The notes beneath the pieces are model-generated. The model did not search any database. It had not been told where the DNA came from and saw only the letters and a list, made by a program, of their open reading frames with translations. The position numbers and the translations under genes are program-made. DNA of 38,410 bases from Anaerolineales bacterium (GTDB taxonomy: Bacteria; Chloroflexota; Anaerolineae; Anaerolineales; Villigracilaceae), in NCBI GenBank assembly GCA_016927315.1, contig JAFGMV010000005.1:1-38410 (forward strand), written 5' to 3'. Within the stretch, counting starts at the first letter, position 1. Each line of letters starts with the position of its first letter. Of this stretch, positions 10,867 to 15,351 are shown one piece after another.

Positions 10867-11508
10867 ATTTCTTCTTTTTTTTGCAAATAGATAGGCTCGT
10901 ACGGTTTCTGATTCTATATTCGGATCTGGTTGGCGAGTGATACTTTCTGTGATTTCAAAGCCTGCTTCGAGCAGCCAGCTTTCCATGTCTTTCACCTGGA
11001 AATAGATAAAATCGAGATTCACCGGTTTCTCCCACCATTCATCAAGATGGAGGACTTCGTTTCCGGTGTGGAACGCCAGCAGCAGCGTACCGCCGGGTAT
11101 TAGTTTCCGGTGCATTTCCTTCAGGGCTTGAACAACCTGGGTGTGGGGGAAATGGATAATACAGTAAAAGGCTGCGATGCCTCCCCAGCAATTGTCCGGT
11201 TTGGGTAGTGCAAGCATATCGCCAGTGCGGAATTCGATTCCGGGATTAAGGTTTTTAGCCACTGAGATCATTTGAGGCGACAGGTCTACTCCCAGTGTAT
11301 CTACGCCTTTCCTGTGCAGGTAGCGGGCGATTTGCCCCGACCCACAGCCCAGGTCGCAGATCGGTCCGAGGGCTCCTGCCTGGAGAGTAAGCCGGTCAAG
11401 GCGCTCCCGGTCGAATGGTTTGTCGTCCATTTCATCCTTGAAACGCTCTGCATATTCGGCAGCTACTTTATTGTAGGAGGATTGTGTTTTTAGGGAGTCG
11501 TTTGTCAT
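10846..11508 (-). CDS. class I SAM-dependent methyltransferase
   Basis: The 220-residue enzyme has a Rossmann-type methyltransferase fold. Motif I is ICDLGCGSGQIARYL (about 50-64), binding the methionine part of S-adenosylmethionine. The acidic residue at the end of strand 2 is in TLGVDLSPQMI, motif II-like sequence is FRTGDMLALP, and a motif III-like segment is LIPGGTLLLAFH. It belongs to the broad Methyltransf_25/11 group; the substrate cannot be inferred. The start is ATG with a weak ribosome-binding site. It lies downstream of the metG terminator on the same strand, so it probably has its own promoter, which I could not identify. The C-terminal Lys/Arg-rich tail runs into the decayed membrane gene. 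Confidence 0.85.
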   Translation of the reverse strand: MTNDSLKTQSSYNKVAAEYAERFKDEMDDKPFDRERLDRLTLQAGALGPICDLGCGSGQIARYLHRKGVDTLGVDLSPQMISVAKNLNPGIEFRTGDMLALPKPDNCWGGIAAFYCIIHFPHTQVVQALKEMHRKLIPGGTLLLAFHTGNEVLHLDEWWEKPVNLDFIYFQVKDMESWLLEAGFEITESITRQPDPNIESETVRAYLFAKKRRNNRAAYY

Positions 11509-11577
11509 CTACAAGTCATCATCTGGAAGCACAGCTGACCATACGGTTGGAAGACAGCCATAAAGTATTCCGGTGTT

Positions 11578-11607
11578 AAAAAGAAGGGCCGGAATAAATC
11601 CTGCCCT
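11578..11607 (-). terminator. intrinsic terminator of metG
   Basis: On the minus strand AGGGC (11607-11603) and GCCCT (11589-11585), with inner GGA/TCC pairs around a TTTAT loop, are followed by TCTTTTT. It lies just past the metG stop at 11619. Confidence 0.65.
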
Positions 11608-11618
11608 GGTGTGGTCTT

Positions 11619-13403
11619 CTAATTGCCCAGCCTGGTGCGTTCTTCTTCAACCAGACTCTCATCCAGCTTTTTGAACAACGGTTCCGGTTGGTTGAACGGG
11701 GCGCCAGGCTGCAGCTGGCTGGGTTTCCATTGTGGTTCGTTAATGCCTTTATACCGTAACCCGGTATGGCTGCCGAGGTTGTCCTCGATATCTTCGACAT
11801 ATTGTTCACCAAAGAGCGGGGTCTTATAGCCGAAGAAGTCATGCAGCCGGGAGGAGGTGTGGGGGAGAATGGGGGCAAAGATGATCTTCAGGGAGTCGAT
11901 TGCCTTCAGGGCTGTATAAACAGTTTTGGCCGCTTCATCCTTGTCGATCTTTACCTGTTTCCAGGGGGCCGTCAAGTCCAGGTATTGGTTTACGGTGGTG
12001 GCAAGTTTCATGGCTTCTGACAGTGCGGCGCGCAGCTTGACCCCATCCAGCAAGGCGCCGACAGTATTGAAACCCTCTTCAATGGTCTTCAGCAGTTCTC
12101 TGTCGACCTCCCGCAGGCTGGCAGGGTCAACATCCGGAATGTGTCCTTCCCAGTTTTTATGGCAGAACGACAGTACGCGGTTGGCCAGATTGCCCCAATT
12201 GGCCACCAGTTCGTTGTTGTTGCGTGCAACGAATTCAGCCCAATCCCAGTCACTGTCCTTCATCTCGGGCATGTTGACGGTCAGGTAATACCGCAGTGCA
12301 TCGGCATCATAGCGTGTCAGGGCATCGTTGCCCCAAACCGCCCAATTACGGCTGCCGCTGATCTTTTGCTTTTCGAGATTCATAAACTGGTTTGCAGGAA
12401 CATCATAAGGCAGGGTAAGTTCAGCTTCCTTCCCGGTGAAGATTTTCATAAACTGTGCGCCCACACCCATTAATTCGGCCGGCCACAGGGACGTATGGAA
12501 AAAGATGTTGTCTTTCCCGATGAAGTAGAAAGCACGTGCATCAGGATTGTTCCACCAATCCCGCCATGCATCCGGAAGACCCGATACCTGTCCCCATTCG
12601 ACCGAAGCGGAAAGATAACCGATGACCGCCTCAAACCAGACATACAGGCATTTCCCTTGCCAGCCTTCTACGGGGACAGGGATACCCCAATCGAGATCAC
12701 GGGTGATTGGGCGTGGCTTTAGTCCTTCTGATTCGATTTTTCCCAACGATTCACCGATAACGGTCTCGCGCATATGGTCTTTGCGGGCTCGCAAGAACTC
12801 GACTACGTCCGGTTCGAGTTTTGAGAGGTCAATATAGAAGTGTTCTGTTTCACGAAGTTCAAGTGAGCCGTCACCGGTTTTCGCTTTGGGGTTGATCAGT
12901 TTTTCGGGTTCCAGAACATTACCACAGTGATCGCATTGGTCGGAGCGGGCGCCCTCAGATTGACAGATATAGCAGGTGCCTTCTACATAGCGGTCTGGCA
13001 GGAACTTTCCGGCTGTTGGTGAGTACCACTGCATTGATTTTTGTGTATAAAGAAAACCGTTCTCTTTTAATGCCAGGAAGATCGCCTGGGAGACTTTAAA
13101 ATGGTTTTCGGTGTGGGTGGTGGTAAACAGATCGTATGTAATCCCATACCCCTTGAATAATTCAATGAAGCTATTATGAAATCCCTTGTAGACATCTTCA
13201 ACGGACTTGTTCTCGGCATCTGCCCGCAGGGTGACTGGTGTCCCGTGCGAATCGGTCCCGGATACCATCAGAACACGATTCCCTTTCAGTCGATGATAAC
13301 GGGCAACAATATCACCGGGCAAGTGTGAACCGGTAATATTCCCCACGTGAATATCGGCGTTTGCGTAAGGCCAGGCGATCGCAATAAGAATGTTTTCAGG
13401 CAT
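11619..13403 (-). CDS. metG: methionyl-tRNA synthetase
   Basis: The 594-residue enzyme charges initiator and elongator tRNA-Met with methionine using ATP. The HIGH-type signature is HVGN in PYANADIHVGNITG near the N-terminus. Zinc ligands lie in CYICQSEG and CDHCGN. The KMSKS-type loop is KISGS in EKQKISGSRNWAVW. A helical anticodon-binding domain follows. No C-terminal EMAP/Trbp111 tRNA-binding domain is present. ATG 13403 is chosen over the GTG at 13409 because GGAG stands five bases before it, whereas the GTG abuts the GGAG. Upstream lies a Met-codon leader ORF with a terminator, so expression is probably tuned by methionyl-tRNA supply. A terminator follows the gene. Confidence 0.96.
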   Translation of the reverse strand: MPENILIAIAWPYANADIHVGNITGSHLPGDIVARYHRLKGNRVLMVSGTDSHGTPVTLRADAENKSVEDVYKGFHNSFIELFKGYGITYDLFTTTHTENHFKVSQAIFLALKENGFLYTQKSMQWYSPTAGKFLPDRYVEGTCYICQSEGARSDQCDHCGNVLEPEKLINPKAKTGDGSLELRETEHFYIDLSKLEPDVVEFLRARKDHMRETVIGESLGKIESEGLKPRPITRDLDWGIPVPVEGWQGKCLYVWFEAVIGYLSASVEWGQVSGLPDAWRDWWNNPDARAFYFIGKDNIFFHTSLWPAELMGVGAQFMKIFTGKEAELTLPYDVPANQFMNLEKQKISGSRNWAVWGNDALTRYDADALRYYLTVNMPEMKDSDWDWAEFVARNNNELVANWGNLANRVLSFCHKNWEGHIPDVDPASLREVDRELLKTIEEGFNTVGALLDGVKLRAALSEAMKLATTVNQYLDLTAPWKQVKIDKDEAAKTVYTALKAIDSLKIIFAPILPHTSSRLHDFFGYKTPLFGEQYVEDIEDNLGSHTGLRYKGINEPQWKPSQLQPGAPFNQPEPLFKKLDESLVEEERTRLGN

Positions 13404-13435
13404 AATCACTCCATAAACGCATAATAAAGTCCTTC

Positions 13436-13467
13436 AAAAAAAAGACTGTCCGGTTTGGCGGACAGCC
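13436..13467 (-). terminator. attenuator terminator in the metG leader
   Basis: On the minus strand CTGTCCG (13465-13459), loop CCAAAC, and CGGACAG (13452-13446) form a perfect seven-pair stem. It extends to nine with a G-U and a G-C pair, and after TC is followed by eight T (13443-13436). It stands 33 bases upstream of the metG ATG, so transcription must read through it to express metG. Confidence 0.85.
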
Positions 13468-13495
13468 TGATTGGGAAGATCGCGAAGGGTAAGCG

Positions 13496-13591
13496 TTATT
13501 CTTCCACAACTGTCCGGGCGCGGCTGTACATGTCCATAGGCATCATAGACATCAGAGCAGAGCGTAGCAAGAGGAAGGATATGTTTCTCAT
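13496..13591 (-). CDS. Met-rich leader peptide of the metG attenuator
   Basis: A 31-codon ORF (ATG 13591-13589, TAA 13498-13496) has Met at 1, 14, 16, 17, 19 and 21, so five of eight consecutive codons are ATG (MSMMPMDM). No protein function is needed; the likely role is to make ribosomes pause when methionyl-tRNA is scarce. The sequence CGGACAG (13516-13510), 12 bases past the last Met codon and 11 before the stop, can pair with the 5' arm of the terminator. A ribosome paused at the Met codons leaves it free, while one that reaches the stop covers it. The promoter's predicted start falls at about 13592 or 13591, so this mRNA would be leaderless, with no ribosome-binding site. Absence from standard annotation would be expected at this length. 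Confidence 0.75.
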   Translation of the reverse strand: MRNISFLLLRSALMSMMPMDMYSRARTVVEE

Positions 13592-13598
13592 TGAGGTT

Positions 13599-13627
13599 AG
13601 TTTAGTCAATCAAAAGAGTGTTGTCAA
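13599..13627 (-). promoter_or_regulatory. promoter of the metG leader
   Basis: TTGACA (13627-13622), exactly 17 bases, then TAAACT (13604-13599) on the minus strand form a near-consensus sigma70-type promoter. It begins seven bases past the sigA stop codon. The predicted start is the A just before, or the A of, the leader ATG. Confidence 0.8.
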
Positions 13628-13633
13628 GGTCCG

Positions 13634-14803
13634 TTACAGGTAATCTTTGAGCTGCCTGGCCCTGCGCGGGTGCCGCAAGCGTCTCAAAGCCCTGCCCTCG
13701 ATCTGACGAATACGTTCACGTGTCAGGCCGAATTTCTGGCCGACTTCTTCCAGGGTATAACTGGTGCCGTCATCGAGGCCAAAGCGCAGGCGCAGGATGC
13801 GAGCCTCCCTTGGAGAAAGGCTGGCAAGCACTTCTTCTAATTTTTCTTTCAACATGGTCTGGTAAGCGCTTTGAAGCGGGGTGGGACTGAACTCATCTTC
13901 GACAAAATGGCCCAATTCAGAGTCTTCATCATCGCCAACCGGGCTTTCCAGGGATAGGGGCAGCCAGGATACTTTCATAATCCATTGTACTTTATTGACC
14001 GGGAGTTTTAATGCTTTCGCCAGCTCTTCTGTGGTTGGCTGACGTCCCAGCCTTTGTTCCAGTTCGTGATTGAGTTTGTACATCTGCCGGATGCGATCGA
14101 TCATATGAACCGGTACGCGAATTGTACGCGCCTGGTCGGCAATCGAACGAGTAATTGTCTGCCGGATCCACCAGGTGGCATAAGTTGAAAAGCGAAAACC
14201 TCTGTGGTAATCGAATTTCTCAACAGCCTTCATCAACCCCAGGTTGCCTTCTTGAATCAAATCCAGGAAATGGACGCCGCGTCCCATATAACGTTTGGCG
14301 ATACTGACAACCAGTCTGGTGTTGGCTTTGATGAGATGTTCCCGGGCAGAAAGTCCATCCTGAATAAGGGCTTCCAATTCACGTCGTCTGGGCGGCGATT
14401 TGCGCCCCTGCTTGATCAGTTCCTTTTTCGCCAGGCGGCCCTGTTCAATGCGTATGGCGATATCAAGCTCCTCTTCCACACTCAGCAGAGGTACGCGCGA
14501 CATCTCTTTTAAATACATCCCGATTGTGTCATCACTCGAGATTGTATCAATTACCAAGCCTTCATCTTCAAGCAGTGCTTCATCGCTGGTTGCTTCTGTG
14601 TCCAGTTCCCCCTCCGGATCGACCACATCAACGCCGCGGCGGCGTAAAGCCATCAGGATGACGCTCAATCGTTCCGCATCCCTGCTGGCATCTGGAAAGA
14701 CCTCCATCAGATCATCGGTGGTCAAATAGCCCTGGATACCGGCCTTTTCAAGCAGCATATCCATGGCTACGGTCTTTCTATTTTGTCGTCTTGCGTGTCC
14801 CAA
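13634..14803 (-). CDS. sigA: primary-type RNA polymerase sigma factor (RpoD/SigA)
   Basis: The 389-residue protein has all parts of a group 1 sigma factor. A region 1.1-like N-terminus is followed by region 1.2 ([18 protein letters not shown]) and region 2 with [20 protein letters not shown] and [14 protein letters not shown] for core binding and -10 melting. Region 3 follows ([20 protein letters not shown]), then region 4.2 with the helix-turn-helix [20 protein letters not shown] that reads the -35. The start is TTG, backed by AGGAGG at 14815-14810; the next in-frame ATG is residue 14 and lacks such a site. It is second in an operon with yceD, whose promoter at 15382-15410 matches the consensus such a factor should read. 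Confidence 0.95.
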
Positions 14804-14838
14804 GCAACCCTCCTGGCATCAAGACGACGCTTTAAGAA

Positions 14839-15351
14839 TCAATTGTCCAGCAATTCCTTCAGCGTCGAGAATGGCGATTCTCCGACCTCGGGCCGATGGC
14901 CGCAGTCTTTTTCGTTCAGATCGTTGCCGCAGACAGTACAAAGCCCCTTGCAATCAGGCTTGCAAACGGGGCTGATGGGAACCTCCAACAGGCAGTACTC
15001 TCGTACCAAAGTTTCCAGATCGATATGTGCATCTTCAGGCAGGATCAGTTCTGATTCGGTAACGGATTTTTGATTGAAGGCGTATAACTCTGTCATTGTC
15101 CAGTGAAGTTGATGCTGGTAGTCATTAAGACAACGCACACATTCCAGTTGCGTAGTTGCTTCAAAGTCGGCCTGGACGAGCAGTCCTTGCGGGGTGCGTC
15201 CAATATTGGCGGTTCCGGTGAAACCTGTCAGGAAAAGATCATTGTCAATCCGGATTTCAGGGAACTCGAAATCGAAATTACGATTGTAACCAACCGGTTG
15301 GTTGACAATGAAGCCGACGTTAAGTCTGAATGGACGGCGAGGCATTGACAC
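14839..15351 (-). CDS. yceD: YceD family (DUF177) protein
   Basis: This protein of about 170 residues belongs to the YceD/DUF177 family, linked in many bacteria to 23S rRNA maturation and often next to rpmF. Visible marks are the core CVRCLNDY (about 76-83) and a C-terminal Cys cluster CKPDCKGLCTVCG, probably metal-binding, followed by DCGHRP. Here rpmF is not adjacent; the gene instead shares a transcript with sigA, 35 bases downstream, tying a ribosome-biogenesis gene to the main sigma factor. The start is GTG 15351 (AGG nine bases upstream); ATG 15345 two codons later is an alternative. Confidence 0.85.
   Translation of the reverse strand: MSMPRRPFRLNVGFIVNQPVGYNRNFDFEFPEIRIDNDLFLTGFTGTANIGRTPQGLLVQADFEATTQLECVRCLNDYQHQLHWTMTELYAFNQKSVTESELILPEDAHIDLETLVREYCLLEVPISPVCKPDCKGLCTVCGNDLNEKDCGHRPEVGESPFSTLKELLDN

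Follow-up and report, generated by a model that had tools for sequence, protein, structure and literature searches.

A putative methionine-codon leader peptide attenuator upstream of metG in Anaerolineales and related Chloroflexota

The DNA upstream of metG was analysed in a 38,410 nt stretch from an Anaerolineales bacterium (contig JAFGMV010000005.1), referred to here as the window. The gene is very likely controlled by a ribosome-mediated transcription attenuator that senses the charging of Met-tRNA. The parts of this leader, their conservation, the reading frame, the complementarity of the arms and their geometry are established by sequence comparison. An attenuator of this kind is expected to have a cluster of cognate codons, given here by five Met codons before metG that lie in frame in relatives, and an intrinsic terminator between the open reading frame (ORF) and the gene, which is present. 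A mutually exclusive antiterminator is also expected, and across the relatives this was met by complementarity, covariation, geometry and folding. The positions of the individual elements are given in Table 1.

Table 1. Elements of the metG leader in the window, pairing arms in selected leaders, and T-box matches at other synthetase loci of the same genome.
Feature	Location	Strand	Remarks
-35 hexamer TTGACA	13622..13627	-	seen in sequence; -35-like sequence also above leader ORFs of relatives
-10 hexamer TAAACT	13599..13604	-	17-nt spacer from -35; 7 nt separate it from leader ATG
Leader peptide ORF MRNISFLLLRSALMSMMPMDMYSRARTVVEE	13496..13591	-	stop included; ATG 13591, TAA 13496, 31 codons
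Met control region	13529..13552	-	ATG at codons 14, 16, 17, 19 and 21 of leader ORF
Antiterminator arm CGGACAG	13510..13516	-	within leader ORF
Second antiterminator helix, 5' side	13500..13508	-	one base bulged; nascent-leader fold, 132 + 140 nt
Second antiterminator helix, 3' side	13472..13479	-	nascent-leader fold, 132 + 140 nt
Terminator 5' arm AGGCTGTCCG	13459..13468	-	target of antiterminator arm
Terminator 3' arm CGGACAGTCT	13443..13452	-	8-T run (13443-13436) extends to 13436
GGAG, Shine-Dalgarno-like, of metG	13409..13412	-	seen in sequence
metG, methionyl-tRNA synthetase	11619..13403	-	regulated gene; ATG 13403; TIGR00398 above cut-off
ORF arm/terminator arm, window			CGGACAG/CTGTCCG
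ORF arm/terminator arm, L007			CGGGCAGC/GCTGCCCG
ORF arm/terminator arm, L006			CTGGGATG/TGTCCCAG
ORF arm/terminator arm, L003			CGCCAG/CTGGCG
ORF arm/terminator arm, L068			GGCAGCC/GGCTGCC
ORF arm/terminator arm, L083			TCCGCCG/TGGCGGA
ORF arm/terminator arm, L099			TGGCGGTC/GACCGCCA
ORF arm/terminator arm, L154			TCGGGACGGACG/CGTCTGTCCCGA
T-box, ileS	L198:3515-3783		99.6 bits, over gathering
T-box, pheS	L208:2637-2887		94.6 bits, over gathering
T-box, thrS	L204:328-585		E <1e-9, under gathering (59-70 bits)
T-box, serS	L205:2732-2966		E <1e-9, under gathering (59-70 bits)
T-box, valS	L197:4201-4484		E <1e-9, under gathering (59-70 bits)
T-box, leuS	L199:1053-1287		E <1e-9, under gathering (59-70 bits)

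An initial annotation, made from the letters of the window alone, had described the promoter, the ORF with its five internal Met codons, the CGGACAG motif, the terminator with eight T, and the ribosome binding site and ATG of metG, and all of these were found where it had placed them. The terminator stem was present with its T run, but it had been quoted as 7 bp and is 10 bp long (13468-13443, one G-U pair). The CGGACAG of the ORF does repeat the terminator 3' arm, as had been noted, and lies between the last Met codon, 12 nt upstream of it, and the stop, 11 nt downstream. In the predicted fold of the nascent leader a second helix (13508-13500/13472-13479) lengthens the antiterminator; this was seen for the window only, with no relatives examined. 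The second helix, the start of the ORF at the predicted transcript start and the T-boxes at other synthetase genes had not been part of the initial annotation. The identity of metG was supported by a TIGR00398 score of 473.6 bits against a cut-off of 336, and the gene was the sole full-length match within the genome assembly, which is 92.7% complete. Its nearest named relatives were from MAGs labelled Anaerolinea, Anaerolineaceae, Anaerolineales, Anaerolineae or Chloroflexi/Chloroflexota. A mini-ORF at 13396-13422 on the minus strand (ATG CGT TTA TGG AGT GAT TAT GCC TGA, with AAGGA upstream) overlaps the metG start out of frame and might couple translation.

MetRS searches spanned 152 family, 250 order, 200 class and 151 phylum genomes, overlaps included, and metG upstream regions were fetched for a part of these only. 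Of these regions, 69 belonged to the GTDB family of the window, 40 to the order outside that family, 40 to the class outside that order and 20 to other Chloroflexota classes. A nearest-relative set contained 16 loci, eight from Chloroflexota and eight from Actinomycetes, with seven of the Actinomycete loci reaching the gene start. Six of the eight Chloroflexota loci duplicated family loci; L005 and L007 are near relatives for which the GTDB family was unchecked. The family level therefore consisted of 72 distinct upstream regions, 70 from the same GTDB family including the window and the two near relatives.

A Met cluster, defined as an ORF with at least three ATG per ten codons and no more than 450 nt from metG, was present in the window and in 61 of the 68 scored family loci (L036, with 93 nt only, was unscored). 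The corresponding counts were 8/8 for the nearest-relative Chloroflexota, 17/40 for the order, 10/40 for the class, 2/20 for the other classes and 0/7 for the Actinomycetes. Shuffled sequences gave 0-4.4% depending on the group (2.8% for the family), and reverse complements gave 7/68, 1/8, 2/40, 2/40, 0/20 and 0/7 for the same groups in the same order. The most clustered codon was ATG at 89 of the 149 family, order, class and window loci, the runner-up being CGC at 22.

A scripted leader call, which required an ORF with at least two Met in ten codons and a terminator no more than 90 nt below it, accepted 65/72 family-level, 20/40 order, 11/40 class and 0/20 other-class upstream regions. Three further family loci missed by the script (L049, L055 and L121) carried a full leader by eye; among the remaining family misses no leader was found at L119 or L126, and L036 lies at a contig edge. 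At L061 the promoter and terminator are retained with an ORF, read by eye as MDSCSCAWTRNSRPPM, that has no Met cluster, an observation consistent with a decaying or altered leader. The class figure is an upper one, as the script-accepted L096, L150 and L155 were unconvincing. The leader is not universal, since 20/40 order, 29/40 class and 20/20 other-class loci lacked the scripted ORF and terminator. By eye only, L172 from another Chloroflexota class showed, upstream of metG, the ORF MMHMTDPAWRAT with a strong hairpin and a run of T behind it, and it is possible that the leader exists outside the Anaerolineae; at L181, an other-class locus with a Met cluster, no terminator was visible by eye.

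When the terminator was taken as the starting point (score at least 17, no more than 560 nt from metG), an ORF with at least two Met in ten codons preceded it at 62/63 family, 20/20 order and 11/14 class loci, compared with 17%, 13% and 10% in shuffles. With at least three Met in ten the counts were 58 family, 14 order and 8 class, and about 1% in shuffles. These shuffles covered only the DNA above the best terminator, and the observed counts accept any terminator. The Met run and the second copy of the arm, which the initial annotation expected to recur in related genomes, were thus found upstream of metG at family, order and class level, and the relatives make a strong comparative case for a putative Met leader. 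In L005, L023, L049 and L066 a short repeat (CACTTGCACC ... GCAAGTGCAGG) lies inside the leader ORF directly above the Met cluster, with the frame preserved.

The tail of the ORF complements the terminator 5' arm in many unlike sequences when G-U pairs and one mismatch are allowed (Table 1), and the two arms vary together among the leaders, as the initial annotation had anticipated. The duplex formed with a leader's own arm was stronger than with foreign arms, at -17.7 vs -12.4 kcal/mol for the family (Wilcoxon p 1e-15, all groups). The own arm ranked in the best 5% against foreign arms in 35/56 family, 5/8 nearest-relative, 4/20 order and 3/11 class leaders, these ranks being weak for the order (median 0.17) and class (median 0.29). 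Against 50 shuffled tails, 31/56 family, 4/8 nearest-relative, 12/20 order and 3/11 class duplexes fell in the best 5%. The duplex of the window was itself unexceptional, with 14% of shuffled tails and 24% of foreign arms doing as well. A MAFFT alignment of one subtype (36 leaders of 39 listed; L052, L124 and L125 omitted) gave a 13-pair antiterminator in which 92.8% of cells were paired, against 27-52% in slid registers, and the terminator was paired in 100% of cells. The covariation score of this antiterminator was reached by 0/500 shuffles. Two-sided changes were found in five cells (1/500 shuffles reach this number), all within one pair, and 419/500 shuffles reach one such pair. When the register was anchored on the Trp codon, independently of pairing, 6/20 columns from 37 sequences paired above nearly all shuffles (no more than 7/500 reach them). 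Counts of this kind are inflated by kinship among the sequences. Overall, the attenuation logic put forward by the initial annotation gained support from the relatives, with nothing contradictory, but the pairing of the window alone was only modestly above controls. Around the stop codons of L003, L004, L008 and L055, GCAGTTCA and TGAACTGC were seen by eye to flank the arm CGCCAG; they could pair into a hairpin whose loop contains the arm, and the antiterminator of these leaders may be a loop contact.

The same ORF tails bear on whether the signal is a TnaC-like arrest by the nascent peptide, or some other signal, instead of stalling at Met codons. In favour of such an arrest, peptide endings such as WKAR or SAR are shared within subtypes, but they fall on the pairing arm itself and are not the same from one subtype to another, and the number and spacing of the Met codons vary freely, so that an arrest peptide is very unlikely.

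The position of the arm was considered with respect to the size of the ribosome footprint. The family arm begins a median of 16.5 nt past the last Met codon and ends a median of 4 nt before the stop, and in 49/56 family, 13/20 order and 5/11 class leaders the arm was close to the stop and 9 nt or more beyond that codon. Because the search for arms was confined to the sequence downstream of the last Met codon, the lower limit of this distance is built in. With this geometry the arm should be exposed when a ribosome stalls in the Met run and hidden when it has reached the stop. In a fold of the stalled state, in which the ribosome occupies the last Met codon and the terminator 3' arm is not yet made, the terminator 5' arm paired with the ORF tail at a probability of at least 0.5 in 48/56 family, 4/8 nearest-relative, 18/20 order and 6/11 class leaders, the window value being 0.83. 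Once the 3' arm of the window was made, equilibrium favoured the terminator in spite of the stall (0.97), and in the model a ribosome at the stop still left the terminator 5' arm partly paired (0.49), indicating that the switch must be kinetic.

In the three-hairpin trp leader a protector hairpin hides the antiterminator arm when the leader is untranslated. No protector hairpin was found in the window leader, where the untranslated fold still paired the 5' arm with the ORF tail (0.83). Such pairing of at least 0.5 in the untranslated fold was found in 27/56 family and 14/20 order leaders, compared with 48/56 for the stalled family folds. Because the window lacks this hairpin, the metG leader was not classed as a copy of the trp leader.

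The contribution of chance was estimated in the window itself. In the region 11400-15000 three terminator-like sites were found, of which only this one is on the minus strand, and shuffles expect 3.6; promoter-like sites numbered seven vs 3.2 expected, the leader promoter being the best with 10 of 12 matches. On these counts the promoter and terminator are remarkable by quality and place only, not by number. A scan of all six frames of the whole window (76,762 ten-codon windows) found five ATG per ten codons three times, each time within the leader ORF, and 0/5000 dinucleotide shuffles of the 450 nt above metG reached this number in any frame. Shuffling the ORF tail produced the CGGACAG motif in 12 of 5000 cases. 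The Met cluster is poorly explained by chance. The terminator might nonetheless be a plain one belonging to the upstream rpoD-like gene (13634-14803), which ends at 13634, with metG transcribed from an unrelated nearby promoter and the Met ORF arising by chance; at L119 metG does lie directly behind an rpoD-like gene without a leader. However, the promoter sits between the rpoD stop and the terminator, and an rpoD C-terminus motif was found no more than 800 nt from metG at only 8/78 family-level loci including the window, with the leader present in most. As the Met cluster and the frame bias described below are also far above chance, this arrangement is highly improbable.

The frame bias was measured in 65 distinct family leaders, with the promoter picked without regard to the ORF. 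From the promoter-defined start down to the terminator, 259 ATG were in frame and 16 and 20 were in the other two frames, an indirect sign of translation; translation of the leader ORF itself is inferred. A bias of this kind, together with the very high Met content, would also be expected if the ORF encoded a functional Met-rich small protein that precedes metG by coincidence. The leader peptides are, however, highly variable in sequence and in length (16 to 50 residues), and what recurs is a Met cluster and an arm-complementing tail, just above the terminator and metG, making a small protein a most improbable account of the ORF.

A promoter with at least 9 of 12 matches was found in 50 of these 65 leaders, a weaker one in 11 and none in 4. 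Where the promoter was good, the first ATG or GTG lay 6-7 nt below the -10 hexamer in 47 of 50 leaders, and at 8, 9 and 34 nt in the remaining three. This spacing puts the predicted transcript start on the AUG or no more than about a base away from it, and the leader mRNA is predicted to be leaderless on the basis of promoter spacing only, the 5' end being unmapped. Among the order and class leaders (n=31), 14 had leaderless-type spacing, 10 a Shine-Dalgarno-like site and 7 neither; this count is biased in that only 4-11 nt below the -10 were allowed, a limit absent from the family count. A strict promoter-ATG pattern had nine matches in this genome, and only the match at metG was a Met leader. 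In the portion of PMC3160421 available, leaderless genes are reported as detected in 4 of 12 Chloroflexi genomes, at approximately 5% of genes.

In the proposed attenuator, RNA polymerase would initiate on the A of the leader AUG or on a neighbouring base, giving a bare 5' end onto which a ribosome would load. When Met-tRNA is plentiful this ribosome would pass the Met cluster, reach the stop codon and cover the arm near the end of the ORF, allowing the terminator to fold and transcription to end before metG. When Met-tRNA is short it would stall in the Met cluster and the downstream arm would stay bare, pair with the emerging terminator 5' arm and let transcription continue into metG. The transcript start, ORF translation, termination, read-through and methionine dependence in this scheme are all inferred, with no transcript, termination or methionine-response data.

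Methionine is a special case, as starting the translation of a leader also needs charged initiator tRNA. A more tentative extension, which we regard as possible but short of probable, is that the leader acts as a leaderless two-state sensor that reads both initiator and elongator Met-tRNA, with metG shut off only once a ribosome has arrived at the stop. A lack of charged initiator tRNA would keep ribosomes from loading on the bare AUG, and a lack of charged elongator tRNA would stall them in the Met run. Because there is no protector hairpin, failure of initiation and failure of elongation would both leave the antiterminator free and metG on. That a failed start and failed elongation give the same answer is an inference from the folding model, and about half of the family leaders lack this property. 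If true, such fail-safe logic would fit the one synthetase whose loss also blocks initiation.

Among synthetase genes, pheST, trpS and leuS have known or predicted leader peptide attenuators according to the sections of PMC1262725 available, and hisS according to those of PMC2965389. The latter states that, to its authors' knowledge and with ermC aside, none had been shown outside the Proteobacteria and Actinobacteria before its hisS case. The metG leader resembles these in having a short ORF with a run of cognate codons before a synthetase gene, plus an attenuator, and differs in using methionine, in its occurrence in Chloroflexota, in the location of the arm inside the ORF, and in that no arm-hiding hairpin was found in the window. 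A study by Lopatovskaya in 2010 is also said to concern synthetase attenuators, and one by Canestrari in 2020 reportedly describes, by its title, polycysteine leaderless short ORFs of mycobacteria as amino-acid-responsive attenuators. The metG leader would share with the latter a leaderless short ORF acting in this way, as far as the title goes, but its amino acid is methionine, and it has an intrinsic terminator and precedes a gene for a synthetase. The accessible part of PMC13236596 refers to leaderless cysteine leaders, and no conserved terminator hairpins were seen at the mycobacterial cysteine ORFs according to the same extract of PMC1262725. The view of the initial annotation that this control of metG is undescribed stands within the open literature, where neither a Met leader before metG nor a leader peptide from Chloroflexota appeared in titles or the start of abstracts among the matches listed, subscription papers being excluded. 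The gene name metG was likewise absent from the searched text of PMC4833913, PMC3766115, PMC10219788 and PMC12452182. The metG leader would add methionine to the amino acids sensed through leader peptide attenuation, and would show such attenuation in Chloroflexota in several diverged architectures. It would also offer a natural test of a leader that needs Met-tRNA to start and yet reports Met-tRNA shortage.

T-boxes (RF00230) are also sensors of tRNA charging, often on synthetase genes, and need no translation. Rfam matches to them were found at 6 of 10 synthetase-like loci of this genome, two being over the gathering cut-off of 93 (Table 1). The match at valS is 979 nt upstream of that gene. 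A 327-codon open frame that ends just above valS lies between the two, and the T-box, preceding both open frames, would act on both genes together. At E 0.001 there was no T-box at L203 (PF00579 match), L206 (proS), L207 (hisS) or L202 (PF00133 match); the synthetase at L202 was left unnamed by family assignment, and the upstream DNA viewed at L203 belonged to a neighbouring ORF. These matches raise the question of whether metG too is governed by a T-box, or by a SAM riboswitch, with the ORF incidental. The metG leader (13300-13800) differed in having no Rfam match up to E 1, T-box included, and no Rfam match scored over gathering in the window as a whole, which makes this the least credible of the alternatives considered. 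The relatives gave only a weak ftsZ-DE match, in L063, among 20 loci at E 0.05, and only tRNAs over gathering at 9 further loci. With some of the T-box matches under threshold, the lineage is predicted to use T-boxes for several synthetase genes and a leader peptide for metG, so that two unrelated charging sensors are split among the synthetase genes of one genome. If the two-state reading of the Met leader is true, it may explain the departure of metG from the T-box control of its sister genes. Within the phylum, T-boxes in two Dehalococcoides genomes are listed for ileS and trp genes in the available part of PMC2494555. The valS locus L197 also gave a Phe_leader match, below threshold.
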